DNA of 23,963 nucleotides from a virus, in IMG/VR virus record IMGVR_UViG_3300043446_005449, positions 1 to 23,963 of that record; one strand, 5' to 3'. The notes under the pieces were generated by a model. The model saw nothing but the letters and a program-made list of their open reading frames with translations. It searched no databases and had not been told where the DNA came from. Shown here piece after piece: positions 727 through 23,347 of the stretch. A program made the translations under genes and the position numbers. Positions within the stretch are counted from its first letter, which is position 1. Each line of letters begins with the position of its first letter.

Positions 727-945
727 TTATTTATCCAAAGAGGCTGTGCATTTTTTGACGTGCATACCGAATCCTGAGTTTCCTTTAACCAGTCGTCCGC
801 AATTCGGACAGGTGTTCATTCGATTACCGATTGCCAAACCACCCAACCTTTGTCTATCAGGAGTAAGAGTAAATTTTTGTTTAAATTCTCTAAGTTTAAG
901 GTATTCAGCGACTTCTTCTTTAGATAATACTACCATTTGTTCCAT
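727..945 (-). CDS. Small zinc-knuckle protein
   Basis: A 72-aa protein beginning MEQMVVLSKEEVAEYLKLRE. The N-terminal half is a charged helix-like segment and the C-terminal half ends in C46-x2-C49-x12-H62-x3-C66. This spacing is identical to that in the GIY-YIG-like gene just downstream. No nuclease core is visible, so it could be a remnant of a homing endonuclease, a stand-alone DNA-binding protein or a small regulator. It is the first minus-strand gene after the divergent intergenic region 946-1267, so its promoter should lie there. The ATG at 945 is the only reasonable start. Confidence 0.68.
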   Translation of the reverse strand: MEQMVVLSKEEVAEYLKLREFKQKFTLTPDRQRLGGLAIGNRMNTCPNCGRLVKGNSGFGMHVKKCTASLDK

Positions 946-3688: not shown

Positions 3689-4858
3689 TTATGTTAGCGA
3701 AGCGGTTGGAGTCTGTACGCCAGCCTCTTCAGTTACGGTTTTTCCTAATTGTTTTCCTTCCTCGAGAACATTATGCGGTTGGATGAAGAGAGCAGAATCG
3801 TAACCATAATAACCGTACAATTTATCGAATACCTTAAGCATTGCCTTTTGAATTGGACGAATACAGGTTGCAATGAAGTGATTGTAAGAAACCATTAGCT
3901 CATCAGCATTGCTTGAGAATCCGCCGCCAGCTCCTTCATGATAGAGACCAAGAAGTAGAGGACTTGTGATACGGTGACCAGTGAGGATACGAGTGGTTAT
4001 ACGTGACTCTAAGGTCGAGTAATAGGTATCATTAGCCGAAGGAATTGGAATGACGTCAGGCGCATGCTCTTTATCCTGAGAGAATGCTATGAATGCCTTA
4101 CCTGCATTTTCAGTTCCTCTGTAGGCCATGGTTAATTCATCGTAAATTTCCTGTCTCTCTTCTGGCTCAGGAATACCGTTATTAAGTCCAATAAAGAGAC
4201 TTGGATTCATTGAGTTTGCAAGATTCGAGATATGGAATTTACTTACCTCTATGTCAATTTGAATATCATTAATTGATCCAGCATACGAAGGCATAGGATA
4301 GAAAAGATTTCCTGGTTCGTAGTCAAAATAGTAAAGGATTTGACTAGGCTCAGTTTCAGCCTTAGTTGGATCATAAGCAGGATACTCAATAGGTTTAATC
4401 TTGCGGAATTGACTCCAATCATGACAATAGTAATATTTTGAAGGCGTGTCCTCTTCCGGATGAATGTGACCCGAACGAAGTTTAGTAAAATCAGCATGAT
4501 AGATTTCTGCGATTCCGGTACCCTCATTGTTCCAGATAACGTTTATGGCAAAACCACCAAATGTAATGTAGTCTTGTGCACATTTCTCGAATACCTCATC
4601 CCATGATTCGGTTGGGTTGGCTCTACGTAGTACGTATTGTTGCTCAGGATTTTGGGTCTTGAGTCCTTCTCCGATTGTTGCGTCTATTTTAGATTGAATT
4701 GCAGTACGATTGATTGCAGACTTGTAAAAAAGACTTGCTACAAATTGAGGATAGAGGTTATCATCTCCGTATTGCACCCATTTTCTGTCCATACGCTCAA
4801 TGAAGGTTGGCATATTGGGTTGTATTGGGTTAACAGAGTAAAATGAATGTTTTTGCAT
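3689..4858 (-). CDS. Phage portal protein
   Basis: A 389-aa protein with the features of an HK97/PBSX-type portal. It has a GDDNLYPQF segment at residues 32-40 and a helix with NRTAIQSKIDATIGEGL (residues 50-66). The central part looks like mixed strands and wing. The stem/clip region includes RILTGHRITSPLLLGL near residue 300, and the next segment is rich in Gly and Ser (EGAGGGFSSNADE). The portal forms the dodecameric ring through which DNA enters the head. It precedes the connector-like and DUF5681 genes. The start lies 17 nt after a TATATCTAA element on the same strand. Its place downstream of the tail-fibre genes is unusual. Confidence 0.9.
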   Translation of the reverse strand: MQKHSFYSVNPIQPNMPTFIERMDRKWVQYGDDNLYPQFVASLFYKSAINRTAIQSKIDATIGEGLKTQNPEQQYVLRRANPTESWDEVFEKCAQDYITFGGFAINVIWNNEGTGIAEIYHADFTKLRSGHIHPEEDTPSKYYYCHDWSQFRKIKPIEYPAYDPTKAETEPSQILYYFDYEPGNLFYPMPSYAGSINDIQIDIEVSKFHISNLANSMNPSLFIGLNNGIPEPEERQEIYDELTMAYRGTENAGKAFIAFSQDKEHAPDVIPIPSANDTYYSTLESRITTRILTGHRITSPLLLGLYHEGAGGGFSSNADELMVSYNHFIATCIRPIQKAMLKVFDKLYGYYGYDSALFIQPHNVLEEGKQLGKTVTEEAGVQTPTASLT

Positions 4859-5667: not shown

Positions 5668-8502
5668 TTATGCGAAATTTTGTACGTATGATCCGTAAAT
5701 ATAGTCTATTCCACCAGCGGTATAGACAACGAATGTGTAAATATCGTGCTTATTTGCAGTTGCGGTCCAGGTTGGAGTTACACCACCTGACCATTGAACA
5801 TTCGCTGGCCAAGTTGCAGTTGCTCCACCACCTGCTGCCTGTTTAAGTCTTAGAACATAAGTTGCACCATTTTTAGTATTTGAAAAGGTAAATGTGTAGG
5901 CCCCAGCTGTAGTAGTTGCTGCAACTGATTGTACGTTACTATCATTCCAATCAATATTTACAGTACCCGCAGCAGTTAAACCTTTATCATTAGCTTCTGA
6001 ATAGCCTTGACCTACAATTTTAAGATTTTGTACATAAGCTGTATTATCTGCATCTGCTGTAATACCAGTACCACCCAAAATAACTGAGTTACTCTTTGAA
6101 TCTATTGCATTATTAGATCCACCAACAATTGCTGAGTTTTCTGCAATATTACCAGCATCTTGTATTGAATTATTGTATCCAGCTAAAATACCTGCACGTT
6201 TTTGACCTATATTATTTTGTCTACCTGCAAGAATACCAGCGGTTTGAGCGTTCGTATAAACATTATTCGCTGCACCTCCAGCAATTATTGAATATCTAGC
6301 ATCATTATAAAATGAATTTTCAAGACCCCCAACAATTGTGGTACAATAACCATTATTATTATTACCTTGACCGCCAAAGATCCATTCAAGATAACTTGCT
6401 GAACCAAGACCAGGATTACCTAATGTATTTTGATAACCTCCAAAAATTTGAGAATAACCATAATTGTTTTGTAAACTTGTAATAGTATTTTGATATCCAC
6501 CGTAAATTCCAAGAAATGGTCCGCTTGACTGAATTTGATTTACACTACCGCCTATGTTTACATTACCAAGTCCACTTGTACTAGAGATTGTATTACTTGG
6601 ACCAGAGATAAGTTGACTTGCAACAATTACTTGACCTCCATCATTTGCTGTTAATCTATCAGTTCCATTTGTTTTAAGAATAATTGATCCGCTAGCATCT
6701 TCTGTTATAATGTATAATCCGCTAGTACCTCTGTGTCTAATTTCACTAACCGCATCTGCACCAGTATTTTTACGAATAATTCTTAATCCATAATCAGAGT
6801 AGGTTGAGTCACCAACCAGATCAACATAACTATTACCGTTACCGCTTCGACTTGTACCAATTTCAAGATGACAATCCTCAGTGTTAACTCCAGCTATTCT
6901 TAATTGAGTATCTGATCCGGTTGCTTCAAATGTTAATTGAGTTTCACCATCGATTACACCAGATGTGCCAGTTGCGGTTAGGACATTATTATTAGTATTG
7001 TTATTAATGACTACACCCGTACCTGTACCACTAGTACCCGAAGTTCCACTTGAACCTGCGGCTCCTGTAGCACCCGAAGTTCCAGAAGTTCCTGAAGAAC
7101 CTGATGTACCTGCCGCTCCTGTAGCTCCCGATGTTCCACTAGTTCCACTAGATCCTGCTGCACCTGTTGCTCCTGAAGTGCCTGATGTACCAGAAGAGCC
7201 GGCAGCGCCAGTAGCTCCTGAAGTACCTGAGGTTCCACTTGAACCTGCTGCACCGTCTGCACCTGAGGTACCCGAAGTACCACTAGATCCAGCAGCACCG
7301 GTTGCTCCGGAAGTACCCGATGTTCCTGAAGAACCTGCAGCACCCGTAGCACCAGAGGTTCCACTTGAACCGGAAGTTCCAGAAGGAGTTGTGGTAATTA
7401 TGAATAGAACTTGATTGTTATTCGAGAAAGAATGCGTTGAAGTTACCAAAGAGACTCCATAAGTATAATAGGTTGAGTTATCAGTTTTTGAAGTGATTGT
7501 CCAAGTTTGATAATTCGCCTGATTGCTTTGATCTTGTATTGTAAAGACTGTGCCGATCCCAAGATTACCTAAGAAAATATCAACGTTATTGGTTAAGGCA
7601 TCAGTGTCGCTAATGTTTATTGAGGTAGCGCTTGACTGTGTTGCATTATTCCAAAGTAGATGACCACTACCTGGATCACCAGAGGTTGCCGCAGTATCTG
7701 ATTGATAATTAAAGAATGAGTTAGATAGACCGCTTGTTCCGGATGTGCCTGATGTACCAGAAGAGCCTGCTGCACCTGTAGCACCTGACGTTCCACTAGA
7801 ACCTGAAGTACCTGATGAACCAGCAGCGCCATCTGCTCCACTAGTTCCAGAAGTTCCACTTGAACCAGCTACACCGGTTGCTCCTGAAGTACCTGAAGTT
7901 CCCGAAGAACCTGCTGCTCCAGTTGCACCTGATGTACCACTTGTTCCAGAAGAACCCGCAGCGCCTGTTGCTCCGCTTGTTCCTGAAGTTCCCGAAGAAC
8001 CTGCAGCACCAGTTGCGCCTGAGGTACCAGAAGTACCTGAGCTACCTGCTGCTCCGGTTGCTCCACTAGTTCCACTAGAACCCGAAGTACCGCTTGAACC
8101 TGGGGCACCTGAGGCTCCTGAAGTTCCTGATGAACCACTAGTTCCTGATGAACCTGTGGCTCCGCTTGTTCCACTCGAACCACTAGTACCTGAGCTACCC
8201 GCTGCGCCTGTAGCACCCGAGGTACCTGAAGTACCAGAGCTACCAGCCAGACCTGAAGTAGGACCTGTCCAATTACCTGCATTATCAATTACTTGGCCAT
8301 AGCCATCGACTGAGTAAGAGACTGCGTCTAGAGTTGCGGCGGTTATGTGAACATCAGTTGTGCTGACCTCGATTGGAATTTCAACTCCTAATCCATCAGT
8401 TAATGGTTGTAAAGTTCCATCCACCCCTGATGTTCCAGCGGTTCCAATACCGACTAGTGATTTATAGGTTTGATAGATTCTTTGGTTCTGTAGATTTGCC
8501 AT
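5668..8502 (-). CDS. Collagen-like and YadA-head-like tail fibre
   Basis: A 944-aa modular fibre. Residues 1-85 form an N-terminal adaptor. Residues about 85-257 and 372-494 are long runs of Gly-X-Y triplets dominated by GSS, GTS, GAT and GAA units, the pattern of a collagen-like triple helix. A non-repeat domain of about 115 residues separates the two blocks. Residues about 640-820 contain repeated IxGGxxN units (IFGGYQNT, IVGGLENS, IIAGGAANN, IVGGSNNA), like the left-handed beta-roll head of YadA-type trimeric adhesins. The C terminus (about 860-944) is Trp/Thr-rich and resembles a phage fibre end cap. The protein is presumably trimeric and involved in host recognition. The many Gly-X-Y repeats may allow changes in length. 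Confidence 0.88.
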   Translation of the reverse strand: MANLQNQRIYQTYKSLVGIGTAGTSGVDGTLQPLTDGLGVEIPIEVSTTDVHITAATLDAVSYSVDGYGQVIDNAGNWTGPTSGLAGSSGTSGTSGATGAAGSSGTSGSSGTSGATGSSGTSGSSGTSGASGAPGSSGTSGSSGTSGATGAAGSSGTSGTSGATGAAGSSGTSGTSGATGAAGSSGTSGTSGATGAAGSSGTSGTSGATGVAGSSGTSGTSGADGAAGSSGTSGSSGTSGATGAAGSSGTSGTSGTSGLSNSFFNYQSDTAATSGDPGSGHLLWNNATQSSATSINISDTDALTNNVDIFLGNLGIGTVFTIQDQSNQANYQTWTITSKTDNSTYYTYGVSLVTSTHSFSNNNQVLFIITTTPSGTSGSSGTSGATGAAGSSGTSGTSGATGAAGSSGTSGTSGADGAAGSSGTSGTSGATGAAGSSGTSGTSGATGAAGSSGTSGTSGATGAAGTSGSSGTSGTSGATGAAGSSGTSGTSGTGTGVVINNNTNNNVLTATGTSGVIDGETQLTFEATGSDTQLRIAGVNTEDCHLEIGTSRSGNGNSYVDLVGDSTYSDYGLRIIRKNTGADAVSEIRHRGTSGLYIITEDASGSIILKTNGTDRLTANDGGQVIVASQLISGPSNTISSTSGLGNVNIGGSVNQIQSSGPFLGIYGGYQNTITSLQNNYGYSQIFGGYQNTLGNPGLGSASYLEWIFGGQGNNNNGYCTTIVGGLENSFYNDARYSIIAGGAANNVYTNAQTAGILAGRQNNIGQKRAGILAGYNNSIQDAGNIAENSAIVGGSNNAIDSKSNSVILGGTGITADADNTAYVQNLKIVGQGYSEANDKGLTAAGTVNIDWNDSNVQSVAATTTAGAYTFTFSNTKNGATYVLRLKQAAGGGATATWPANVQWSGGVTPTWTATANKHDIYTFVVYTAGGIDYIYGSYVQNFA
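7021..7387 (-). repeat. Distal collagen-like coding repeat block
   Basis: About 120 consecutive Gly-X-Y triplets at residues 372-494 of the fibre, built from units of the type GSSGTSGTSGATGAA. The protein repeat is nearly perfect while the codons for Gly, Ser, Thr and Ala vary from unit to unit, so the DNA repeat is degenerate. The opposite strand is also open here and encodes Val-Pro-Glu-rich nonsense. Confidence 0.85.
7731..8251 (-). repeat. Proximal collagen-like coding repeat block
   Basis: About 170 Gly-X-Y triplets at residues 84-257 of the fibre, the longer of the two blocks, with the same SS, TS, AT and AA alternation as the distal one. Codons are again mixed between copies. The two blocks flank a unique domain, so recombination between them could remove or duplicate that domain. 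Confidence 0.85.
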
Positions 8503-10138: not shown

Positions 10139-11068
10139 TTAGTCTAGAGTTGATACGAATTGAGACGCGTAAACTGCAGTACCTAAACGGAATTTAGCCA
10201 TGAAGTTAACGATATCTTGTGAAGGATCGTAGTAGAACTTGAACTTATCTTGGTCATCAAGTAGGCCTGTTCCGAAGAAAGCATACTTTTTAGGACCCAA
10301 GAAAATCGCAGCGTTATCATCGATACCACCAGCAGCAAAGATAGTTACGTTAGTACCAGGCCATACGAATGAGCTAGCACCCATAACACCAGCAGCGTTA
10401 GAGATATTAGGATATTGAGCGATGATCGCGTTTCCTTTAGCTTGAAGAGCTTGAACAGCGATTGAGTAGTTAGAGTACGACATGTACATAACTAGATCAT
10501 CTTCTTGCTTAAGAGCGTTAGTCAAAAGACCGATAAGACCCCAAATTTGATCTTCAGCAGTAGCAACTGTCAAAGGACCAACGAAAGCTGAACCGTCGAT
10601 AGCGCCGTTAGCAACGTTTAATTGAGACATAAGACCGTCTAGGTTTCCACCATCACCTTGCCATACAGTGTTTTCAATGTATTGAGCGATGTTGTTTACT
10701 TTGTTGTCAGCGATCATTTTTTCAAATGGAACTGATTCCAAGTAAGCAGATGGAGAAAGTTGGCTAGACAACCAGTAAGTTCTTAGATCTTCTGGGCAAA
10801 GTTGCTCTTTCAACATTTTTGATTGAACTACTAAATCAATTTGAGAGAAGTTAGTAGAGTTTGAACCGGTTTGACCAGCTCCGAATCCACAAGTTGAATC
10901 TTTGATATCAACAGTAGAGTTTAGAACGTTTATTGCTGTGGTCCCAGCTGTTAAGCCAGCACGCAAAGTCAACATGTTCACTGAGTAGCTCTTCAAAAGA
11001 GCAGCACTGATCAGGTCTGTAGACAACTGGTCGGTGTAAGTGCTTAATCCTGATAAATTAAATGACAT
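10139..11068 (-). CDS. Major capsid protein, HK97-type fold
   Basis: A 309-aa protein. The N-terminal arm (residues 1-55) leads into a region with NSTNFSQIDLVVQSKMLKEQ (about 70-89), like the E-loop or P-domain strands of HK97 capsids. A long spine-like helix follows (VNNIAQYIENTVWQGDGG), then an A-domain. The C-terminal part has GPKKYAFFGTGLLDDQDKF and VNFMAKFRLGTAV, the usual closing strands of these proteins. Length and neighbours (scaffold just upstream, tube downstream) agree. It would form the icosahedral shell. The ATG is preceded by ATCTAATTAATC, nearly the same leader as the gene at 15140. A stem-loop follows the stop. Confidence 0.88.
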   Translation of the reverse strand: MSFNLSGLSTYTDQLSTDLISAALLKSYSVNMLTLRAGLTAGTTAINVLNSTVDIKDSTCGFGAGQTGSNSTNFSQIDLVVQSKMLKEQLCPEDLRTYWLSSQLSPSAYLESVPFEKMIADNKVNNIAQYIENTVWQGDGGNLDGLMSQLNVANGAIDGSAFVGPLTVATAEDQIWGLIGLLTNALKQEDDLVMYMSYSNYSIAVQALQAKGNAIIAQYPNISNAAGVMGASSFVWPGTNVTIFAAGGIDDNAAIFLGPKKYAFFGTGLLDDQDKFKFYYDPSQDIVNFMAKFRLGTAVYASQFVSTLD

Positions 11069-11090: not shown

Positions 11091-11681
11091 TTATTTTACG
11101 AATTCTTTGCGTAGCTCTTTTAATGCTGCTACTTTAGCATCGATGGCATCGAATTTGGTTTCGATTTCACCAGTTTTTGGGATCTTTGTTGCAGCGGGTG
11201 CTTTAGCAAATTTCTCCATTTTTGTTTTCATGGCTCCCATTTCCTCTTTAACCTTAGAAATTTCAGCAGCGCATTCTTCGATTGCAGCGAATAGCATTGC
11301 CATTTTTTCTTCGATCTTAGCGGCAACTTCGTCCTTGATTGGAGTCTCTGTTTCTTTTGTTACTTCAACTTCAGTTTCTTCAGCCATAGCTGCAGGGATA
11401 GCTGCAACTTCTTCACCTTCAGCTACTTCGGCTTCAGAGGTAGCAATTTCAGAGATCATGCCATTAGCATCAACTTTTACTTTTGTACCGTCTTCTAGTT
11501 CATGGTAACCTTCGGGTGCTGGTGATTTTGTTCCGTCTTCGGCAACAATCGACACAGGGAATCCAACTTCGAGTTTCTCAACCTCAATGATCGTTCCGTC
11601 TTTTAACTTAGCCGTTTCAAATTTGATAGGCATGTTTAGGACTTCGCGGATTTGGTTCAGTTTTAACTTGTAGTTTGACAT
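11091..11681 (-). CDS. Scaffold-like head assembly protein
   Basis: A 196-aa protein. Residues 20-82 hold spaced DGT motifs (KLKDGTIIEVE, AEDGTKSPAPEG, LEDGTKVKV), a small strand-rich N-terminal domain. A very acidic linker (82-115) follows, then a predicted coiled coil (about 115-196) rich in Glu, Lys and Ala. Domain plan, size and position immediately before the capsid gene match scaffold proteins of Bacteroidota phages. It would guide capsid shell assembly and then be cleaved or expelled. The start at 11681 is used here; an internal Met at residue 17 (MPIKFETAKLKDG) is a plausible alternative start. It is the first minus-strand gene after plus-strand island B. Confidence 0.78.
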   Translation of the reverse strand: MSNYKLKLNQIREVLNMPIKFETAKLKDGTIIEVEKLEVGFPVSIVAEDGTKSPAPEGYHELEDGTKVKVDANGMISEIATSEAEVAEGEEVAAIPAAMAEETEVEVTKETETPIKDEVAAKIEEKMAMLFAAIEECAAEISKVKEEMGAMKTKMEKFAKAPAATKIPKTGEIETKFDAIDAKVAALKELRKEFVK

Positions 11682-12272: not shown

Positions 12273-14105
12273 ATGGCAAATTCTAAAAAACAACTTACTA
12301 AAAAACAAATGATCGAGGTAAAAAACTCGATTCAAAGTGAAACCATCACCAAAGTACTTGCAGAATATGTTGCATGTAAAAAGGCAGGCCGTCCGGTTAA
12401 AACTACTATTAACCTTGCAACAGGAGTTGGTAAAACACGTACTGCTTGGAAGCTTATTTTTGAAAATGACAAATTCCAGACAATTCTTTTTATGGTTCCA
12501 AAACAATCGCTAGTTGACCAAACTATAGCAGAGTTCATGGAGCAAGGAATTGACTTTGACTATTGTACAGTTTATACGCAAGGCGATGTTAAAACAGTTG
12601 AAGAGTTACATCAATTCTTAAATAGATCAACTAATGGTAAAAAAATCGTTTTTGCTGTCTATAATTCGGTTGGAGTTACTGACGAGCGTTCAACTATTTT
12701 TAATGACTCACCCTTTATATTCGACTTAGCGATTTACGATGAGTGTCACCGAGTTGCAGGTAAAGAAATGAGTCAATTTACTTCATGTGTAGCCGATGCA
12801 GTTGTTAAAGCTCATCATAAATTATTCATGACTGCTACTGTTAAATTTTATCTTGAAGGTCCAGATGAAAATTTAAATGAATACTCAATGCAAAATGAGG
12901 AACTCTTCGGTAAGATTGCAATGTCTTTAACTGTATTTAAAGCAATTGAATTGGGGATCTTATGTCCATTCGAGACATTCTTATTGGAAGTAAATGACTC
13001 AGAAATTCGTAAAGCCCTTCGTAAAAATGTAGAATTTTACGATAGTATAACTAAGGGTCGTCATGTAGCAACTTTCTATGGAGTCCTTAATGCTTACAAT
13101 CAAGGTGCTCGTAAAATTATTGTAATGTATCGTCAAATCAGCGATGCTAACGATTTTGCTCGATTATTCCAATACTTACAGAGAACTTCTGGTCTATTCC
13201 AAGGCGCAACTATTGGTTCTGTTGCAAGTAGCGCAAGCCGTTATGAATTAGGAGCGCCTTATCAATACTTAAATGAAGCTGGTCAATTAGTAATTATCGG
13301 TAATAGCAAACGTAAAGCTCAACAATGGTGGTTAAAATACGGTCCTTTCTGCCAAAGTGCATCAGCTGTTGCAACTGCAACTCCTTGGATCAAAGAAGGC
13401 GAAGATGTTCCATGCATTGATTGTATTGTATTTGGAGATATTTTTAAGTCCGGTATTGATATTATCCAAATCATAGGACGAGCTCTACGTTGGTATGAAG
13501 ATAAAAATATTGCTCGCATTATTCTACCCATTATGCAAGGCGAAGCTACAAGCGTTGCTACTGCAATCCGAGCAACAGTAGGTTCTCTTCAAGAAAATGT
13601 TAGTGATTTTCAAATTACTCATGTTGAACATGTAAACGAACTTACGCCAGATCCTGCAAATGGTCAAAATCCTGACGAAATTACAGAAGTTACTGAGACT
13701 ACACCACGTTGGATTTTCTCTGAGGATCAAGATGGAATAACTACATTGGTTACCGATAATCAATTGACATTTAGCGTTATTCATAATGCAAATACTCCTG
13801 CTGCAACTAGATTAGAGCATGAACACATGATGCAAGTGATTGGACTTAGAGCCACTAATCGTTTTCATGAATACTCTCGAGAACAACGTGCAGAAAAATT
13901 TATTGATGAAATAATTGCTTTACTTAACGATGATAATTTTAGAGCTACCTCTGTTCGTAAAATTAATTCAAATGATTCATATTATGAAAGATATGCTAAT
14001 CAATATTCAATAAGTTTTGATGATGCAAAAAAAGAATTAAGTAAACAAATTTATCGAATCGAAGCTTTACGTAATGACTTTTTAAATAATCTGATCCAAT
14101 TCTAA
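12273..14105 (+). CDS. Superfamily 2 DEAD/DEAH-type helicase
   Basis: A 610-aa protein with clear SF2 motifs. Walker A is ATGVGKT at residues 49-55, the DECH box (motif II) is at 156-159, motif III MTAT is at 186-189, and motif VI QIIGRALR is at 399-406. The arrangement resembles the helicase part of type I/III restriction or phage DNA-repair helicases. No nuclease motif is evident in the last 150 residues. The role could be in DNA replication, recombination or transcription, or defence against host systems. The gene is AT-rich compared with the late genes and lies on the opposite strand within them, which suggests a separate transcription programme or acquisition. Module 3 precedes it and module 4 overlaps its end. 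Confidence 0.88.
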   Translation: MANSKKQLTKKQMIEVKNSIQSETITKVLAEYVACKKAGRPVKTTINLATGVGKTRTAWKLIFENDKFQTILFMVPKQSLVDQTIAEFMEQGIDFDYCTVYTQGDVKTVEELHQFLNRSTNGKKIVFAVYNSVGVTDERSTIFNDSPFIFDLAIYDECHRVAGKEMSQFTSCVADAVVKAHHKLFMTATVKFYLEGPDENLNEYSMQNEELFGKIAMSLTVFKAIELGILCPFETFLLEVNDSEIRKALRKNVEFYDSITKGRHVATFYGVLNAYNQGARKIIVMYRQISDANDFARLFQYLQRTSGLFQGATIGSVASSASRYELGAPYQYLNEAGQLVIIGNSKRKAQQWWLKYGPFCQSASAVATATPWIKEGEDVPCIDCIVFGDIFKSGIDIIQIIGRALRWYEDKNIARIILPIMQGEATSVATAIRATVGSLQENVSDFQITHVEHVNELTPDPANGQNPDEITEVTETTPRWIFSEDQDGITTLVTDNQLTFSVIHNANTPAATRLEHEHMMQVIGLRATNRFHEYSREQRAEKFIDEIIALLNDDNFRATSVRKINSNDSYYERYANQYSISFDDAKKELSKQIYRIEALRNDFLNNLIQF

Positions 14106-14143: not shown

Positions 14144-14647
14144 ATGAAACGTCAAGTATATTTTGAAAATGGAATTGATTTTTTAAAATTTCTTCATCGA
14201 AGAGATAAAATGAGAATTGATTTAGCTGTTTTAATTGAGGCTTTTAATCAAAATGAAGAATTCAAATTAGGTATCTTAAAAAAGATGGCCGATGAAAATG
14301 AAAGTCGAAGAAAAAATCGATCAGAATGTAGTGCTAAAGCCCGAAATACTGATAAGTGGAAAGAATCTAATAAAAGAACAGCTTCAGCAAAAGGTAAATT
14401 AAATAAAGGCGTTAAAAAGAAAAGTAATGAAAAGTATATTGAAGTTGCTTTAAGTCGACCAGTTGAGCATTATCAAAAAGTTTCTGCAGCTTTAACTGGT
14501 ATACCTCTTACTGAGGATCGTCGAAATAATATCTCTGATTCTTGTAAAAAACGTAAAGTATGCCCCTATTGTAATTCATTTGAGTCCAATGTAGCTAATA
14601 CAAATAGACACATGAATAACTATTGTAAAAATAGACCAGGTCTTTAA
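14144..14647 (+). CDS. Zinc-knuckle protein with NUMOD3-like segment
   Basis: A 167-aa, very basic protein. The N-terminal half (residues 1-60) is helical and unrecognised. Residues 60-105 are Lys/Ser/Asn-rich, and residues about 112-132 (KVSAALTGIPLTEDRRNNIS) resemble the NUMOD3 DNA-binding motif of homing endonucleases. The end holds C140-x2-C143-x12-H156-x4-C161. No nuclease core is visible, so this may be a homing-endonuclease derivative or a DNA-binding protein. It closes island B. The stop TAA (14645-14647) shares TTAA with the stop of the 43-aa minus-strand gene, as at 2593-2596, and a plus-strand terminator follows at 14673-14704. Confidence 0.76.
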   Translation: MKRQVYFENGIDFLKFLHRRDKMRIDLAVLIEAFNQNEEFKLGILKKMADENESRRKNRSECSAKARNTDKWKESNKRTASAKGKLNKGVKKKSNEKYIEVALSRPVEHYQKVSAALTGIPLTEDRRNNISDSCKKRKVCPYCNSFESNVANTNRHMNNYCKNRPGL

Positions 14648-14775
14648 CGTCCTTGTCCTCTATACTTCTTTGGGCGTTCGGTCTTAGGGCCAAACGCCTT
14701 TTTTGCTTTACCTGACTTCTTAGGTTTCTTTTTAAAGAGACTTTCAAGAGCCTTTTTTATCTTTCCCAGTGCCAT
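14644..14775 (-). CDS. 43-aa highly basic peptide
   Basis: An ATG at 14775-14773 opens a 43-aa frame ending at TAA 14646-14644. It reads MALGKIKKALESLF and then a Lys/Arg/Gly-rich tail (KKKPKKSGKAKKAFG). The start overlaps the stop of the 121-aa gene by one base (TAATG), a classic translational coupling. The composition suggests a nucleic-acid-binding or virion-packaged peptide. Its coding sequence includes the plus-strand terminator hairpin on the other strand. The stop overlaps the stop of the converging gene. It is small, so the call rests on the coupling and the strongly biased composition. Confidence 0.66.
   Translation of the reverse strand: MALGKIKKALESLFKKKPKKSGKAKKAFGPKTERPKKYRGQGR
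14673..14704 (+). terminator. Rho-independent terminator of island B
   Basis: GGCGTT (14673-14678) pairs with AACGCC (14693-14698), with further inner GG/CC pairing, and six T residues follow (14699-14704) on the plus strand. It lies 26 nt after the 167-aa gene's stop and inside the minus-strand 43-aa gene. Confidence 0.85.
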
Positions 14776-15140
14776 TATTTCAAGTTAACTAATTTGTACT
14801 TGGTTGAATACAATAATTCCTCGATCTCATCTATTTGATTTTGCAAGTATGACTGAGGAATTGCCTTTCTGAGCTCTGTCAATTGCTTGCAGATTTCTAC
14901 AAAGTAAGCTACGGTTGCTGCGTTATCTTTGTAAGAGACTAATGGGTAAGCAACATATCCTGAAAGGATCCCGTATTCACCCTGTGCGCTTTCGGTTAGG
15001 CCATCAATTAGTTCTGTGATCTCAGAGTAATATTCACCTAGGGTCTCATGTTCTGAGAATGATTTGGTTTGGCGATGGAAGATTTGGGCTTGAGTGTTTG
15101 AACTCAAGAGAATTGAAAGGAGTTTTACTAGTTGTTCCAT
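14775..15140 (-). CDS. Ferritin-like (Dps/DUF5856-type) phage protein
   Basis: A 121-aa all-helical protein. Residues 16-58 (AQIFHRQTKSFSEHETLGEY, then EITELIDGLTESAQGEY) follow the pattern A..xH.QT.S...H..LGE.Y....D...E..QG, seen in Dps-like helical-bundle proteins of Bacteroidota phages (DUF5856 by my recollection). Possible metal-binding residues are H21, H30, E34 and E53. The family's role in phages is not established; metal storage, DNA protection or a structural role are all possible. It begins 2 nt after the protease gene's stop and ends overlapping the 43-aa gene's start. Its leader contains TATCTAATTAATT just before ATG. Confidence 0.72.
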   Translation of the reverse strand: MEQLVKLLSILLSSNTQAQIFHRQTKSFSEHETLGEYYSEITELIDGLTESAQGEYGILSGYVAYPLVSYKDNAATVAYFVEICKQLTELRKAIPQSYLQNQIDEIEELLYSTKYKLVNLK

Positions 15141-15142
15141 AA

Positions 15143-17215
15143 TTAATTAGATAGTATCTTTTTGATTTTCATGTATTTTTTCATGGCTTCAATTTCGGCG
15201 AGATCCGAGAAAACTCCTTCAACCGAGAAACCGCGTAGTTCTCCAGCTTTTACTCTTTTACGAACTTGAGGATCTTCGATCTGCATTTTTACCATCCAAG
15301 TTCCTTTAGGCAGATTGAAACCATAAACCGTGTTGGCTTTATCTGTTTTTGGATCCTCAATCAACCAGGTCTCGAACACGTAAGTACCAGCATCTTTCTC
15401 TTTGTGATCTTGGTTAACGTCATTTGTACGAGCCTCTTTCATGTACTTCTTTGCAATCTCTTCAATTGTCTCGGCTGAAAAAACAACATCGTAAGGTTTG
15501 CCTTCATCATCAATACGAGGAATCGCCATATTTGGGATCATTGCTGGGCCTACTAGGATTCCTTTCTCTTCATCTTCAAATCTCAATACACTTGAGAATG
15601 CTGAGTGACCAGAGAGTCCTGGTAATGAAGACTGAGGAGACTTAAGATAACCTCTACCTTGTAAGGTTCTGGGTGCAGTGTTTGCCATGTGCTCTTCGTT
15701 ACTACCGTCTATTTCAACTCTGGTTACCTTTAGTCTTGAACCATCACGTGTGATTGAGTATTTAGAAAAATAGTGATTGCAATTGGCACCACCCTTATAG
15801 AGAAAGATGGAATAACTTGAGTCTCCGCCTGGACCAAATTCTTTATTTAGACTGTCCATCATTGCTAACTCTTCACGAGAGTAATAGCGATTAAGAGATT
15901 TCATTACTTGACAAAATCCTCTATGAGGTCCGGGTCCACCGCCTGAGTACTTCCAAACAAACTCTTCCTTGTCGGCTTTGGTATGAGTACGAGCTGGAGT
16001 GTAGTCCGCGCTCTTGATTGCATTCTGATCCGCAAAATGACCGGGATTAATCTCTTCAACCTCTTCGGCCCGAATACCAATCTCGGATCCCAACTTTTCT
16101 AAAGCAACAAGAAATTCATCAGAGAAAGTCCAGCTCCAAGTAGGAACGGGTGTCTCTACCTGATCTTTTCTAGACTTGGGAACCTCGTCCACGTAGGTCG
16201 GTAGGCTTGAGGTATCAATTCCAAATTTCTGACCAACCTCACCAAGCAGATCAACAACCTCTTGGTTATTGTCAATATGAGTTGTGATACCAAGTTCCTT
16301 TACCTTGGCAACCTTAGCCGCATTGGAGCCGGTTGCAAAGACATGATCTCTTGGAATGCCCAATGAATCGGTAAGAGGTAGCATCTCTTCTTTTGAAGAA
16401 CGAGCTGAGATAACGTAAACGTCATAGCCAGCGTTCATGCTGGCAAGAGCAGCGGTTTGACCGGTTGCTGTACTTAGGGTATCATCGTAATCGTATGAGA
16501 TTTTGGCAGTGTCGAAGCGCTCGTTCCAGATAAATCTACATGATTCAAGTGCGTCAGTTGGTGACATGCCCTCGTGTACCTTAACTGCGGTACAACGCTT
16601 TAGGAAATCGTCCTTGTGTTCTTGGGGTTGCGGATAAACTGTTTCAAATTCTCCACGTATCTCTGCCAATTTATTCTGGGCCCATTCGATTGCTGCTGGT
16701 CCTCCCCAAGCGTCCACCATTAGTCCACCACATCCTTCGGAATAGGGCACATCCTTGTATTGCAGGTGTCTTGCGAACGATGCCATTCTGGCAATGGTCT
16801 CTTCGGAAACCGGTTCGCCCTTGGCTAATTGATTGGCTCTGGCCCAACCTACTGGGGTTCCGCAGTCCTGATCGGGATGAGCGTCTCTCCATTCTAGCGC
16901 GCGTTTGGCTGCCGCTTTGGCTGAGGCAGGATAGTCGGTGTAGCTCTCAAAGGCTTCGTGTTTTGATTCCCATACTGAATAACAGATAGCTGTGGCTTGA
17001 TCTGCATCCTTGCCCTCATTGATGTTATAGGCAATGCAACGAGAGATAAATTTGTCCCGTGATTCGCCAGCATTGGGTTCAACAAATTCCTCCTTCTTGA
17101 AGTAGAGAAAATCTGCCTCAATTGCTGGATTCTCAACGAGACTTATTTTTTGTACCCCTGACTCTTCCAATTCGGGTAGAATCGCGAGTTCAATTAGTTT
17201 GGTCTTCTTTTCCAT
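15143..17215 (-). CDS. XkdF-type prohead protease with HAD-like and Cys-repeat domains
   Basis: A 690-aa multidomain protein. The N terminus has KISLVENPAIEADFLYF (23-39). Two related Cys segments follow: DKFISRC...AICYSVW (54-82) and DDFLKRC...ESCRFIW (203-231). Between them lies a region with AAKRALEWRDAHPDQDCG and MASFARH. Residues 238-317 look like a HAD phosphatase: DYDDTLS near 242, ISARSS near 270, HIDNN near 314. Residues 421-500 contain GGGPGPHRGFCQVMKSL and SYSIFLYKGGANCNHYF. The C-terminal 140 residues match XkdF-like prohead serine proteases (Peptidase_S78_2) and carry a likely catalytic His at H604 (QDHKEKD) and Ser at S664 (RGFSVEG). The protease should mature the scaffold and capsid. 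The other domains are unusual additions. TATATCTAA lies 4 nt before the ATG. Confidence 0.84.
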   Translation of the reverse strand: MEKKTKLIELAILPELEESGVQKISLVENPAIEADFLYFKKEEFVEPNAGESRDKFISRCIAYNINEGKDADQATAICYSVWESKHEAFESYTDYPASAKAAAKRALEWRDAHPDQDCGTPVGWARANQLAKGEPVSEETIARMASFARHLQYKDVPYSEGCGGLMVDAWGGPAAIEWAQNKLAEIRGEFETVYPQPQEHKDDFLKRCTAVKVHEGMSPTDALESCRFIWNERFDTAKISYDYDDTLSTATGQTAALASMNAGYDVYVISARSSKEEMLPLTDSLGIPRDHVFATGSNAAKVAKVKELGITTHIDNNQEVVDLLGEVGQKFGIDTSSLPTYVDEVPKSRKDQVETPVPTWSWTFSDEFLVALEKLGSEIGIRAEEVEEINPGHFADQNAIKSADYTPARTHTKADKEEFVWKYSGGGPGPHRGFCQVMKSLNRYYSREELAMMDSLNKEFGPGGDSSYSIFLYKGGANCNHYFSKYSITRDGSRLKVTRVEIDGSNEEHMANTAPRTLQGRGYLKSPQSSLPGLSGHSAFSSVLRFEDEEKGILVGPAMIPNMAIPRIDDEGKPYDVVFSAETIEEIAKKYMKEARTNDVNQDHKEKDAGTYVFETWLIEDPKTDKANTVYGFNLPKGTWMVKMQIEDPQVRKRVKAGELRGFSVEGVFSDLAEIEAMKKYMKIKKILSN
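15147..15153 (-). promoter_or_regulatory. TATCTAA element before the ferritin-like gene
   Basis: Minus-strand TATCTAA, 6 nt before the ATG at 15140. It overlaps the last codons and stop of the protease gene. It differs from the 9-mer elsewhere (CTATCTAA rather than TATATCTAA). Confidence 0.3.
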
Positions 17216-17233: not shown

Positions 17234-19489
17234 TTAGAGTCTTGCCACTTGCTGTATGCGGAAATCAGCCTCTTGTTGTGAGGTCATCTCAGAAGCAACA
17301 ACATAGGTTTTAATTACTGGAATCGTCATTGATCCGGGTGCGGTTGCTCCGCCCTCTGCGAACGGTCTACCTCCACCAGCCTGATTGATTAGGCTTAGGA
17401 GTCCGCTAAACATCTCGGTGCTGCGTGCATTGATCACGGATTCACCATTAGAGAGTCGAGCAGCTATTGAGTCCGATGTTCCGGTACCCGGTCCGCTTAC
17501 AAGGCCACCGTCCGCAAACATGCTCTTGCCACCGCCAGCGGCTCCACCCGCTCCAGCGCCTGCACCAGCACCGCCTCCTCCTTCATCCGGCACAAACTCG
17601 GTATTCTTGATCTTGATTAGCTGAGCGGCTAGGGTAATGCCTGCCGCAACTAGGGCAGCGGTCATCATGATACCACCGTCAAATTTTGGATATTGAGCAA
17701 TGATACTACCTACCGCGACAGCACCGTTGATTAGGGCAGTTGCGTACTGTAGTTTCTTATTGTTATCAAACTGTTTCTTTTTAATCGCATTGGACTCTGC
17801 CAATTTTGCGGCTTCAATTTGAGCGATTGCCTCCTTATCACCTTCGGCTGCAGCCAATTGCGCTGCATACTTGCGATTGATTGCATTGATCTCATTGGTC
17901 TGATTGACCTGAACAAGTCCGCTAATTTGATTGATGACTCCCGAAGCCATGGCCAAGTACTTTTGGTAGTTGTCCATTTTCTGTTGAAATAGAGCAGCAT
18001 CCCTAGCCTCTTCTTCATCGGCTAATTGCTTCTTCTTGTTTGCAAGTTCAATCTCTAGATCAATTGTCTCTTGTTGAGCAGCCGTAGCCGCATCTATCTT
18101 CTTTTGAATTCGATCAAGGTCAAGTTGATCCTGTTTCTTTTTGATCTCTTCTTTTTCTTGTTCGGTTTTTGCATCGCTTTGAATTAGGAGTAGGGACTCT
18201 TTCTTATACTCATCATCGATCGCTTTTAACCTATCATCAAATGCCTTTTTATCGTCCTCTAGCTTTTTGGCCTTACGTGCCTTTTCCTGTTCATCTAAGA
18301 GATTATTGGTTGCAACGATTTGTGCTGCATCCTCGGCCGCTTGTTGGGCCTTTAGGGCAGCTAGTGCAGCATTCTCTTCTTTAGTACGCTTCTTAATCTT
18401 TTCAAGGGCATCTATCTTGACCTGTAGTTCAGCATCCTGATTCTTTTGAGCAATTACCAGGGCCTCTCTTGCTCTGAGCTCCTCGTCCTTGATGCTGGCT
18501 AGGTAAGCCTCATCGACCGCCTTAGTCTCAGCTTTAAGAGCCTCTTTCTTGATTGCAATGGCAGCATCGGCTCTCTCCTTGGCCTTGGCAGCAGCCTCTT
18601 TGGCAGCATCCTCAGCCGCTTTTTGCTTTTCTTTCTCTTTTGCCGCTTCTTCAGCATCCAATTGCTTTTGAAGTTTATTAAATTGACGTTGTTGAGCAGA
18701 GGCTTTTTGTTGAGCTTCATATACTCGTTGTTGAGCTTCAGCCTGTTTATCTATTGCTGCTGTACTTCGTCCATGCATTATTATTTCATCTTCAGCTATT
18801 TCTAGTCTTTCCTTGGCATTCTTTAATGCTTGAGCAGCATTAGCTTCTTCAACTTTCCGTACATCTTCTAATGCCTTTTTTCTTTCTTCAAAAGTTGCAT
18901 TAGAGTCAGACATGATTTCCCTGGCCTCAGCAATTTGTGCATTGGTTTTAGCTTGTTGAACATTAAAATCTCTTTCTGCATCCTCTAATTCATCCAGTGA
19001 TGATGCTAGACTTCTACCAGCGGTACCCGCATTTCCAAATAGATTTGCAACAACCTCTAGACCGTCGGCAACCTTTTCAAGAACGTTAACCGCAATTGTT
19101 TCAAGAAATGCAAAAATTGGTCGAACAATCTGACCAAATATCTCTGTGATCTCACTAAGAGAGTCCATTGCTTTATCTGAGTTCTGGATTGCCTTGGTGA
19201 AGGCAGCTAGAATAACTCCAATTGTACCAATCACGGCACCAATTGGGGTAGCCAAGAACTGTAGCGCAGCCTTGGTCATGCTCATGATACCGCTAGCGGC
19301 ACCGCCTAGTGGACCGGGTAGTTTACCCAGCAGGTCACCAAAATTGCTGGTTGATTTTGTGGTACTTGCGACCGCACTACCGGCTTTACCACCGGCATCG
19401 GCCATTTTATCTAGGGAGTCCGTCGTCTTTTGAATCGACTCGGCCCCTTCCACGGTGGCTTTAACCCTTACGTCAACGTCTTTCGCCAT
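17234..19489 (-). CDS. Tail tape measure protein
   Basis: A 751-aa protein with the typical tape-measure plan. The N terminus is Val/Lys-rich (MAKDVDVRVKATVEGAESIQ). A hydrophobic segment near residues 70-105 includes FLATPIGAVIGTIGVILAAF. A very long charged coiled coil (about 165-510, rich in Ala, Lys, Glu and Gln) follows. A second hydrophobic region lies at about 577-625, then a Gly/Ala-rich stretch (about 633-651) and a C-terminal LSNGESVINARSTEMF motif common at tape-measure ends. It sets tail length and may form a membrane channel at infection; 751 residues imply a moderate tail of about 110 nm by the usual rule. No sheath gene is seen, so a siphovirus is favoured. It lies between the tail proteins and the protease. 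Confidence 0.9.
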   Translation of the reverse strand: MAKDVDVRVKATVEGAESIQKTTDSLDKMADAGGKAGSAVASTTKSTSNFGDLLGKLPGPLGGAASGIMSMTKAALQFLATPIGAVIGTIGVILAAFTKAIQNSDKAMDSLSEITEIFGQIVRPIFAFLETIAVNVLEKVADGLEVVANLFGNAGTAGRSLASSLDELEDAERDFNVQQAKTNAQIAEAREIMSDSNATFEERKKALEDVRKVEEANAAQALKNAKERLEIAEDEIIMHGRSTAAIDKQAEAQQRVYEAQQKASAQQRQFNKLQKQLDAEEAAKEKEKQKAAEDAAKEAAAKAKERADAAIAIKKEALKAETKAVDEAYLASIKDEELRAREALVIAQKNQDAELQVKIDALEKIKKRTKEENAALAALKAQQAAEDAAQIVATNNLLDEQEKARKAKKLEDDKKAFDDRLKAIDDEYKKESLLLIQSDAKTEQEKEEIKKKQDQLDLDRIQKKIDAATAAQQETIDLEIELANKKKQLADEEEARDAALFQQKMDNYQKYLAMASGVINQISGLVQVNQTNEINAINRKYAAQLAAAEGDKEAIAQIEAAKLAESNAIKKKQFDNNKKLQYATALINGAVAVGSIIAQYPKFDGGIMMTAALVAAGITLAAQLIKIKNTEFVPDEGGGGAGAGAGAGGAAGGGKSMFADGGLVSGPGTGTSDSIAARLSNGESVINARSTEMFSGLLSLINQAGGGRPFAEGGATAPGSMTIPVIKTYVVASEMTSQQEADFRIQQVARL

Positions 19490-19690: not shown

Positions 19691-22600
19691 CTAGGCGCAG
19701 ATTAATCCTTGAGTTATTTGTACGTCTCCAAAGATCGTCACCACGGTTCCATCTATTGCACATATCTGGTATTGTCCGCCGAAATCAACGTCCAGACTCT
19801 GAGTTAAACCAGTGTTACAGTCCTGATACTCAACCTGACCGGTATCGCCGCTCAAGAGTTCAATTGACCAGGTGTAACAGTCACTACCCGGACAGGCACC
19901 AGTCTCGGTGATGTCTAAATGACCTTCGGCTGAGGCACCGGATCCCTCACACATACAGATATTGTAGATGCTGTTCGGTAGGATCTCTTGGAATAGGGTG
20001 TTACCCGTCGTGCAGTCCTGATAGCTTAGGTAGGCCGGATCAAATCCAGGAGTTGACACCGTGTACTCTAAACAGTTACAGGTCCAACCCTCAGAACAGC
20101 TTAAGCAGTCAGGATAGATGAGATCCGCTGGATAGACACCCAAGTGATATTGTGCGGTAACAGTCCAACACTGTCCTGGGAAGGCGCTAGACGAAATGCT
20201 TTGACCTATTGAGATGGGTACATTAGAGTGGAATGAATAGATCACGGTCGGCGAAGTACAGGTTTGAGCAAGGTAATAATAGACCGGATCGCATACAGCA
20301 CAGTTAAGGGTTCCGGTAATGTAACCAGAAGCATCTGTGATGTAAACAGGGGTGCCCAATTCCTCGTAGGCTTTCCAATAACCTTCACCCGCAGCGGTCT
20401 GACCAGCATTATCTAAAAAGACTTGGGTTGCCGTTGCCCAGGTTGCAGCATTTAACCAAACGTCTGTCTGACTAATTGATCCAAAGCAGGCATCGCAGGT
20501 ACCGGTTCCAATTGATGAGACTAGAGCCTTTGCTGCATAGGTATCGGTTACGCCGGTACAGGTTGAACACAGACCGACCGCGTAGTTTACGCCGTTTACG
20601 ACCTGTATAGCTAGGGTTGGATCTGCTGGATCCATGTACCATCCATCGGTAGCTGCGATTGTGCCAGCGCTGTCCTGCCAAATATAGTAGCTTGTGGCTA
20701 GGGTCGTGTTGTCTCCCCAAAGGGTTATGGTCGTGCCTCCGCAATCGCATGCGGTACACAGTATACCTGATCTGCAACAGTTAATGAATTCGGTTAGCGG
20801 TGGTAGCGGTGTACACGGTTCGCATAGGGTTCCATCGTAATAGGCAATGATTGCACCGCCTGCTCCCACCTGAAAAACTGTACCGTCGGCAGCCGCATAG
20901 TAACCCGGATTACCCGGAATTGTCTGTGAGGCATTCTGCCAAACTATGGAACTTGCAGAGAGTAGAGCATTATCGGTCCAATAGGCTGCGGTGTTCTGTA
21001 GTTGAGCGCAGCAATAGGCATCGCAATAGTTTGCTGTTTCCAAAAAGTCCGAAACGTAACACAGTTGATGTTCGTAACCCAGACCGGTGGTTGGTGGAAT
21101 GGTTAGGCCAAGTTCGTTACCAACCTTGATTAGTTCAACCTTACATGGTGTTGTCTGACCCGCAACGTAATCCGAGACCTTATTGACAAGGTACCATGCG
21201 TCCTTGATCCAATAGTAGTTATTGAATTTGAGCGCAATCATGGTCTTGTAGTTCATGATGAGAGTTGCCTCAACCTTACGGGAGTAGGGGTCAAAGTTGG
21301 TTCCATACCAGGTCTTCCAATAGACATTAAATGTATCGTAGTTGGTTCTACCATCGGGTAGACCGTAAAGCGTGTTCCATAAAGGACTCTTGTTCTGCCA
21401 ACTAAGATCGAAAGTTGAACTATTCACCGGCCAGAAGGAGTACTCGCTCATTAGCGGATAGATCGTCTGTTGTTGCGGTGCTCCGGAATCGTCCTTTAGG
21501 TACCAGTTAAGCGGTGCGGCCTGCTTGCCATTATAGAAGACAAGTCGTAATTTTGGCTGGATTGGATTGTTCTGTACCGCGGTGAAGTCAGCCTTAGAGA
21601 TCCAAGGAATCAAGAATTTGGCAGCTAGGGCTGTTGGATTGCTACCCGCGGCTGGCACGGCTCCACCGATTGGGAAGAGCGGAGTTGGCGCGAACTGATC
21701 CTTGACCGTGGTGGTACCCGTAATGAGCTCGTTCTGCGAGTCAATATTGAGTTGCCCGTAGGTTTGCTTGTAGGCCAATTGATAGGTGTAGTTTGGAAAA
21801 TCGGCGTCCTCCTGATCCGAATAGATCTGAAATCTGCTCTGATCGTAGAACAGGGGTACCGCCTTGAAATCCTTGCTCGCATCCAAGAGTTGATTCCAAT
21901 CATAGGATTGTCCCTCAAGAATCCAGTCCTTCCAGGGTGTAATCCTAAAGTGTTTAAGATTATCCGGACTGGGCACAAACACCAACTTAAATCTGTTAAT
22001 TAGGCTGCGCATGAAATCAATCTTTCTAATGTTGTTTGGCATCATTGAGTTTAGGGTCACAATCTCTGGTGCAGCAGTACACGAGATGGTAATGTTATTG
22101 ATTCCAATTGATGCACTCGTATTCGCAGGCACCGGATCGGGTTCAATTGTAAATCGGACCTGTTGATTAACCGCTAAGTTAACCGTAAAAGACATGGTTT
22201 GGGTTGGACCCGTCCAGTTAGAGACCTGATTGGTAATTATCTTTAGATTCTGTGCAAGTACCGCTTGTGATTGCGCATCCCTAATTGAAATTGTGTAGGT
22301 TGTGGTGTATAATGGTATTGGGCCAGCGTTGGGCGGAGTTAATCTGTGTTTGTAATTAAGCGTGAAGTAGTAGGTGCCCGTAACCTGCGCGGTGTAGGTG
22401 CTAGCGCCGTTCCAGACTCCGTTGGGATCCGATATTTCATGAGAGGCATAGATATCGCCGACCGAGGTCAAGGCCAACCACCATTGCGGAGATGTGTTGT
22501 CTGCCGAAAAGGTTAATGATACGTCGAATTCGGGTCTGGCCTCCTTTTCTGAAATGATGTACAACTTTTGAAAGAACTCGCTCTGGAGAAAATCGCTTTC

Positions 22601-23347
22601 ATAGGTGTACTCGGTCTCCGAAAAGATCTTGTCCCATAGGGCTTTGGCCCGGATTGAAGGTTTTAACTGGGCTTGGCTTAACGGATTGGAGGCCGAGGTG
22701 AATCCCTTGGTGGCTGAGGTCGCATTGTAGAGCGCGGTCGAACCCGATTGTTGGGGTTCGGTGATTCCGGTTGATGGATTGGGCGCGTAGGTATAACCCC
22801 AGTTGCACAGAGGATAGACAACATCGCCGCCGAATAGTCCGTTTGCAAGGCCGTTTGCCGGATTGGTGTTCCAACTCTGCGTGATGTTTAAGTAGGTCTG
22901 ATCGTGATTGTAGTTGCTCAGGTCCAGATCGCTCAAGAAGCCGCCACCGATTTGACTGCCAAAGTCCGAGGTTTCACCCATAAAGACGATCTCGTACTCG
23001 ACATTACCATCCAAATCGTTTTGATAGGTTGCTATGAGTCTGATATGGCCATTCGTGTAGAAGGCACCGGAATCATTGATATAGGCCGCAATCTTTTGAC
23101 TTGCATCGAAAGAGACCGAGTTGACGTTGAACGCGGCCTTAAAGAATTCGTTATTGGCCTGCGTGTTGGGTACACGAAAGGTACGTGAAAATACTGAGGT
23201 TGTCGATAGTGGATCCACGATATTGGTAACCGACAGGTTAAGCTTGATTGGTTCCTCATTAAAGAGGTCAAGCCTGGTGTAGTCTGCATCGTCCGGTTTG
23301 CGAGCCCATAGTTGAACAAGAGCGACTGTTTGAGCGGTTTGAGCCAT
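19691..23347 (-). CDS. Large tail protein with Cys-rich repeat C terminus
   Basis: A 1218-aa protein, the largest in the window. The N-terminal part (1-180) includes LDLFNEEPIKLNLSVTNIVD and TFRVPNTQANNEFFKAAF, a pattern typical of large baseplate or distal-tail proteins in Bacteroidota phages. Residues 180-760 are strand-rich and Trp/Tyr-rich. From about 770 to 1020 three repeats of roughly 70 residues are bracketed by Cys pairs and share W, then DNAG/DSAG, then GYY/GYW. From about 1085 to 1218 two repeats share YQDCTTG/YQDCNTG. These may be Ig-like or adhesin modules stabilised by disulphides. It is likely a tail-tip or receptor-binding structural protein. It starts 3 nt after the preceding gene's stop. 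Confidence 0.8.
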   Translation of the reverse strand: MAQTAQTVALVQLWARKPDDADYTRLDLFNEEPIKLNLSVTNIVDPLSTTSVFSRTFRVPNTQANNEFFKAAFNVNSVSFDASQKIAAYINDSGAFYTNGHIRLIATYQNDLDGNVEYEIVFMGETSDFGSQIGGGFLSDLDLSNYNHDQTYLNITQSWNTNPANGLANGLFGGDVVYPLCNWGYTYAPNPSTGITEPQQSGSTALYNATSATKGFTSASNPLSQAQLKPSIRAKALWDKIFSETEYTYESDFLQSEFFQKLYIISEKEARPEFDVSLTFSADNTSPQWWLALTSVGDIYASHEISDPNGVWNGASTYTAQVTGTYYFTLNYKHRLTPPNAGPIPLYTTTYTISIRDAQSQAVLAQNLKIITNQVSNWTGPTQTMSFTVNLAVNQQVRFTIEPDPVPANTSASIGINNITISCTAAPEIVTLNSMMPNNIRKIDFMRSLINRFKLVFVPSPDNLKHFRITPWKDWILEGQSYDWNQLLDASKDFKAVPLFYDQSRFQIYSDQEDADFPNYTYQLAYKQTYGQLNIDSQNELITGTTTVKDQFAPTPLFPIGGAVPAAGSNPTALAAKFLIPWISKADFTAVQNNPIQPKLRLVFYNGKQAAPLNWYLKDDSGAPQQQTIYPLMSEYSFWPVNSSTFDLSWQNKSPLWNTLYGLPDGRTNYDTFNVYWKTWYGTNFDPYSRKVEATLIMNYKTMIALKFNNYYWIKDAWYLVNKVSDYVAGQTTPCKVELIKVGNELGLTIPPTTGLGYEHQLCYVSDFLETANYCDAYCCAQLQNTAAYWTDNALLSASSIVWQNASQTIPGNPGYYAAADGTVFQVGAGGAIIAYYDGTLCEPCTPLPPLTEFINCCRSGILCTACDCGGTTITLWGDNTTLATSYYIWQDSAGTIAATDGWYMDPADPTLAIQVVNGVNYAVGLCSTCTGVTDTYAAKALVSSIGTGTCDACFGSISQTDVWLNAATWATATQVFLDNAGQTAAGEGYWKAYEELGTPVYITDASGYITGTLNCAVCDPVYYYLAQTCTSPTVIYSFHSNVPISIGQSISSSAFPGQCWTVTAQYHLGVYPADLIYPDCLSCSEGWTCNCLEYTVSTPGFDPAYLSYQDCTTGNTLFQEILPNSIYNICMCEGSGASAEGHLDITETGACPGSDCYTWSIELLSGDTGQVEYQDCNTGLTQSLDVDFGGQYQICAIDGTVVTIFGDVQITQGLICA

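Follow-up and report, generated by a model that had tools for sequence, protein, structure and literature searches.

Small modules, including a HAD domain, inserted at one site of an XkdF-type phage protease and their probable role as head cargo

In the viral DNA analyzed in this study, about 500 amino acids (aa) of small modules are inserted at one site of an XkdF-type protease. The window, i.e., the whole stretch of DNA that was analyzed, corresponds to the entire IMG/VR record IMGVR_UViG_3300043446_005449 (23,963 bases). The gene in question occupies positions 15143..17215 of the minus strand, on which all features described below are located unless otherwise stated. Its open reading frame (ORF) of 690 aa contains zero internal stops and was resolved by module profiles into NT-CYS-DYP-CYS-HAD-YKGG-PROT, the insert comprising CYS-DYP-CYS-HAD-YKGG in this order. 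Sequence comparisons suggest that the inserted modules, the HAD domain among them, are probably (approximately 60%) cargo of the head lumen, attached to proteins of the head interior. What would otherwise be an isolated oddity becomes a pattern: at a constant position within a protease that matures the capsid, modules of a shared set are taken up, and this set is also found on the portal or in free genes next to packaging genes.

Insertion site in the protease

The catalytic core of the protease (aa ~547–671; 15203..15577) was identified by its match to PF14550 (Peptidase_S78_2, XkdF), covering aa 547–668 with an E-value of 2.5e-16 and 60.3 bits at a curated cut-off of 24. The catalytic residues H604 and S664 reside in the motifs NQDH, starting at position 601, and GFSVEG, starting at position 662, and both are invariant in the protease alignment A2 (columns H53 and S113). 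The Pfam match and the invariant columns thus confirm the initial annotation, which had named these two residues of an XkdF protease. Its remark that proteases of this type are usually short likewise holds for the group studied here, since bare NT-PROT proteins measure 189–201 aa. The same annotation placed the protease core at the end of a fusion protein, which is correct for the core but not for an N-terminal fusion, as the modules are located between two protease parts. The first of these parts, NT (aa 6–41; 17093..17200; KLIELAIL...SLVENPAIEADFLYFKK), had been missed and was recognized by homology to bare relatives as belonging to the protease itself; the modules therefore represent an insertion.

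To delimit the insertion site, module profiles were built from the fetched loci, and every ORF in those loci was scanned. The gap between NT and the core amounts to 13–17 aa in 69 bare relatives and to 148–780 aa in 63 proteins, in which it is filled with recognizable modules, and no gap of intermediate length was found among these 69 and 63 proteins. Accordingly, in gp1 of the Nonlabens phage P12024L, the counterpart of aa 1–42 continues straight into the protease core. Furthermore, NT is retained in all inserted proteins featuring a complete 5′ end, with the exception of one split gene. The two gap classes, together with the retention of NT, indicate that the modules were inserted at one protease site. 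The full-length model of the window protein, in which NT reached a pLDDT of about 30–60, gave no significant match in Foldseek. Some relatives also carry modules after the core (NT-PROT-DYP and NT-PROT-SCAF), and the proteases of P12024L and of the L032 type are fused with the scaffold. In L100, NT-CYS-HAD-GHH-DYP and YKGG-PROT are encoded by two ORFs (264–1631 and 1643–2836), either because the gene is naturally split or because of a sequencing error; its close relative L099 possesses one ORF of 743 aa.

A conserved protease interrupted by about 500 aa could also be the product of an intein, an intron, an assembly chimera or an annotation artefact. This explanation is hardly conceivable for the gene studied here. 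A Pfam search of the protein yielded no match to a Hint or intein family, and the junction is devoid of intein splice residues, which led to the rejection of an intein or intron. An assembly artefact was rejected because intact ORFs with dN/dS values well below 1, i.e., under purifying selection, recur in many independent metagenomes; moreover, the same modules are also fused to other proteins and occur free-standing.

The gene is embedded in a head gene cluster of the order tape measure, protease, scaffold and capsid, which matches the arrangement in L191. The tape measure gene (17234..19489; PHROG tape-measure matches) lies immediately upstream of the protease gene. A separate gene for a probable scaffold protein (11091..11681) was found with the SCAF profile, the seed of which is the window's own ORF, and its function is assigned because it precedes the capsid gene. 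The probable major capsid protein (10139..11068) was named from its position after the scaffold gene and shows a weak match to phrog_11320, a family of unknown function.

Several further genes of the window were recorded. Between the protease and scaffold genes, a ResIII/DEAD-type helicase gene on the opposite strand (12273–14105, plus strand) interrupts the late cluster, and the product (121 aa) of the gene next downstream of the protease gene (14775–15140, minus strand) matches phrog_858, labelled as a starvation-inducible transcriptional regulator (E-value 4.9e-21). Four small ORFs (236–709 and 727–945, minus strand; 2057–2596 and 14144–14647, plus strand) share a similar terminal C..C...H..C finger (e.g., CPHCGKKIKGAVYGTWHGDNC) and appear to be free-standing genes akin to homing endonucleases. 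Long GSSGTSGTSGATGAA collagen-like repeats characterize a 944-aa protein (5668–8502, minus strand), which is probably a tail or fibre protein. Beside the tape measure gene, a 1218-aa protein (19691–23347, minus strand) is encoded, the C-terminal third of which is Cys-rich with repeated CxxC-like units.

The HAD domain and its companion modules

The segment around the motif DYDDT (residues 242–246), which had been described as HAD-like, represents a genuine capless HAD domain (aa 238–331; 16223..16504). Its AF2 model, computed from a 39-sequence alignment, reached a mean pLDDT of 98.2 and displays the full HAD strand and helix order. The best PDB matches in Foldseek were KdsC/YrbI-type capless HAD phosphatases, with a probability of 1.00 but a best E-value of 1.2e-3 and a TM-score of ~0.6, so that the fold is clear and the family relationship distant. 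Motif I comprises D242 and D244 (with T246), motif II S270 (with R272), motif III K301, and motif IV D315 with E319. Among 44 HAD sequences of less than 90% identity, the motif I Asp was found in 44, the second Asp in 43 and the Thr in 42; the Ser and the Arg are each conserved in 43/44, and the Lys and the motif IV Asp in 44/44. Since the HAD loci were found via patterns spanning motifs I and IV, the values for these two motifs are biased upward, while those for Ser, Arg and Lys are unbiased. The fold is present and the second Asp and the Lys are conserved, so that neither of the two observations named in the initial annotation as speaking against a HAD enzyme was made. The domain is likely an active phosphatase.

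Pfam produced marginal matches for a few family members only, and a match of the HAD segment to ADH_zinc_N (E-value 0.0024) was rejected, because it scored less than the curated cut-off and the fold speaks against it. PHROG matches were obtained to a nucleotidase family for 24 of 39 HAD members (best E-value 6.5e-6), to a family of unknown function for 16 of 39, and to polynucleotide kinase for one. From these weak nucleotidase and polynucleotide-kinase matches, the substrate might perhaps be a nucleotide or a nucleic-acid end.

Alternatively, the HAD domain and the other inserts could be structural or binding modules devoid of catalytic activity. The domain is indeed minimal and capless, and in L081/L085, where HAD follows the protease core, catalytic residues have been lost (DYHET for DYDDT and IISAA for IISAR), with the Lys and DNN being kept. 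Moreover, the full-length model contains long disordered linkers. However, a lack of activity is improbable, because the D, D, T, S, R, K and D positions are kept in 42–44 of 44 sequences, including residues outside the search patterns, and because the dN/dS of the HAD domain is about 0.17. The modules and the protease are all under purifying selection, as reflected by median pairwise dN/dS values, which amount to approximately 0.17 (HAD), 0.10 (DYP), 0.08 (CYS), 0.12 (YKGG) and 0.10 (protease core) and come from pairs that are not independent of each other.

The duplicated Cys motif and the Cys/His-rich region of the initial annotation were likewise recovered as modules. The two CYS copies, both identified by profile match and AF2, are helical hairpins with a Cys pair spaced 18 residues apart, namely, C60/C78 in copy 1 (aa 44–83; 16967..17086) and C208/C226 in copy 2 (aa 192–231; 16523..16642). 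In copy 1, helices were predicted at residues 53–66 and 71–86 (pLDDT about 92–95), and this copy matches phrog_2423, a PHROG of 52 aa. The Cys pair faces across the predicted helices. The hairpin could be a disulfide staple or a metal site and, in addition, a head-targeting tag. CYS is located immediately N-terminal to HAD in 55 of 74 cases, and in L002, two copies adjoin each other without a DYP domain.

In the window protein, the two copies flank the DYP domain (aa 90–185; 16661..16948), an all-helical domain of ~96 aa (pLDDT 94–98 in AF2), which is conserved and had previously been missed. Its homologues are found in halovirus portal-MuF fusions, the HGTV-1 prohead protease, a MuF-like protein and a stand-alone phage gene; Pfam and PDB provided no match. 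The Cys/His-containing YKGG domain (aa ~417–497; 15725..15967; RGFC ... YKGGANCNH) shows homology to the domain at the C-terminus of the P12024L portal, a relationship that had likewise been missed. A relationship between YKGG and MuF was rejected, as the YKGG profile did not match the MuF-like protein of L192.

Carriers of the modules and their probable place in the head

Among the relatives, dozens of module architectures were observed, and the near-identical backbones of L017 and L019 differ by a swapped order of HAD and DYP. The HAD domain is also fused to the portal, as PORT-(CYS-)HAD-YKGG, in L091, L080, L041 and L071. The G016/L189 phage carries CYS-HAD-YKGG on its portal and has a bare protease (202 aa), whereas the window phage combines a bare portal (389 aa; 3689..4858; phrog_11226 portal, E-value 3.6e-37) with a protease carrying CYS-HAD-YKGG. 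According to the HAD tree, about seven carrier changes are needed; the domain being short, well-supported branches enforce only two to three of them.

HAD was present in 24 out of 34 whole records, in exactly one copy in all 24. YKGG was detected in 31/34 records and is single-copy in 30 of these 31, including the window record with its one copy inside the protease; the one deviating record, G009, likewise yielded two protease matches, which lie at the two ends of its contig. All 26 long portals (564–742-aa frames) carry YKGG. Regarding the five intact short portals (360–417-aa frames), YKGG resides in the protease for three and in a separate CYS-HAD-YKGG gene for one, and is missing for one. 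The association between portal length and YKGG (Fisher p 6e-6) is partly built in, the two not being independent; the informative point is that with short portals, YKGG is usually kept elsewhere and not lost.

Free-standing genes for CYS-HAD (143–144 aa) were found in seven records, upstream of and close to the terminase genes. HAD matches in 84,980 bacterial and archaeal genomes were limited to two, namely, L191, a contig from a Bacteroidetes MAG that shares the gene order of the window and in which the end of a bare protease gene and a HAD gene of 97 aa overlap, and L192 (Empedobacter), in which, close to a portal-like gene, a MuF-like gene and a distant HAD overlap. This low number suggests that most carriers are probably lytic phages, and L191, L192 and the Nonlabens relative point to Bacteroidetes as their probable hosts. 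Among cultured phages, only the Flavobacterium elemo phages yielded a HAD domain; it is free-standing there (34% identity), close to a tail-fibre gene and with no recognizable head cluster around it.

A link of the HAD domain to the phage head is therefore supported by its recurrence in these genomes, be it in the protease, on the portal, or beside terminase, protease and portal/MuF genes. Portal C-termini and prohead proteases face the prohead interior, as established for HK97-like and T4-like phages. Since both carriers share this orientation, the modules would be located inside the head as cargo, and a module that moves between protease and portal, and otherwise resides beside packaging and head genes, would be either head-lumen cargo or a head-assembly accessory. 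As cargo, the modules could have reached the head as follows. The linker between NT and the catalytic core has become the place where small modules from a pool common to several head proteins are inserted, and fusion to the protease would place these modules, including the putative capless HAD phosphatase, inside the head. There, they may stay in the virion or leave it with the DNA on ejection, possibly freed by the protease cutting itself. Encapsidation, enzymatic activity and release by self-cleavage are what we infer for these proteins. At the module joints, no self-cleavage site could be demonstrated, which counts against a cargo role. Phe followed by Ala, Glu, Val or Ile, frequent at some joints (e.g., before CYS), was rejected as a cleavage motif because it overlaps with conserved module edges and a protease strand.

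The modules may instead act in assembly or packaging and not as delivered cargo, which we consider rather unlikely. For example, HAD would act on DNA ends or nucleotides at the portal or terminase, YKGG and CYS would be docking domains holding portal, protease and scaffold together, and fusion would merely secure stoichiometry and position. Consistent with such a role, free-standing CYS-HAD directly adjoins terminase genes, YKGG is normally a portal C-terminal domain kept once per record, and some HAD members match nucleotidase and polynucleotide-kinase PHROGs. Against cargo, it can further be argued that free-standing copies next to terminase need not be packaged, that a fusion might act during assembly alone, that cultured phages yielded the HAD domain as a distant free gene and not in the fused form, and that catalytic residues were lost in some copies (L081/L085). 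However, HAD is absent from 10 of 34 records with the same head genes and is thus not a core assembly factor, and domain turnover and order swapping resemble accessory cargo more. A role of the modules as head-lumen cargo is accordingly preferred.

As a bolder and doubtful extension, the XkdF linker of 13–17 aa could be a dedicated, recombination-accessible cargo-loading site, the protease of Bacteroidetes phages carrying exchangeable enzymes and binding modules into the prohead, from which they are released by self-cleavage and delivered at infection, with CYS as head-targeting or packaging tag. The pattern described here makes it testable which enzymes these phages hold in their heads and may represent a natural design rule for protein loading into capsids. 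Furthermore, the unnamed domains DYP and YKGG and the Cys hairpin gain a common head-associated context.

Comparison with known systems

Enzyme domains on head proteins have been described before. Nudix domains fused to MuF, portal and a capsid-processing serine peptidase were proposed to be packaged and injected (PMC9503650), as were the enzyme domains that polyvalent proteins carry on head proteins (PMC5512222), and MuF toxins have been described as well (PMC5576092). The initial judgement that a phosphatase module in such a protein is unexpected was thus too strong, given hundreds of relatives and published enzyme fusions (PMC9503650).

Among the closest known systems, the XkdF-type gp1 of P12024L shares NT, core, catalytic His and Ser, and the location in the head cluster with the window protein. 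In gp1, NT and core are contiguous and a scaffold is fused C-terminally, whereas the window protein features about 500 inserted aa and the scaffold is encoded by a separate gene. Proteins of uncultured Caudovirales labelled 'XkdF' or 'HAD-like domain' in UniProt/BFVD (e.g., A0A6J7WUA4, 335 aa) contain a near-identical HAD (TM-score 0.97–0.98, 55% identity), but are shorter than the window protein and were annotated automatically; no interpretation of them was found in the open-access literature. Likewise, the open-access literature, subscription papers being outside the search, contained no account of the HAD domain on such carriers, the insertion site or the relocation between protease and portal.

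With C0 HAD phosphatases, namely, KdsC/YrbI and KDN-9-phosphate phosphatase, which gave the top Foldseek matches, the window HAD shares the Rossmann-like core, the four motifs and the missing cap. It is shorter (~95 aa versus 155–185 aa in these enzymes), with a TM-score of only ~0.6, and a substrate of the KdsC type is not implied.

The window protein family resembles MuF toxins, polyvalent proteins and portal-MuF fusions in that an enzyme domain is fused to an interior head protein, here the HAD in the window protease and on the portal in relatives, and moves between carriers. Pfam found no MuF domain (PF04233) in the window protein, and neither a MuF domain nor an immunity gene was recognized with the window system. 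In contrast to the MuF and polyvalent systems, the window protein holds its modules within the protease, at one set position, and its enzyme is a HAD domain.
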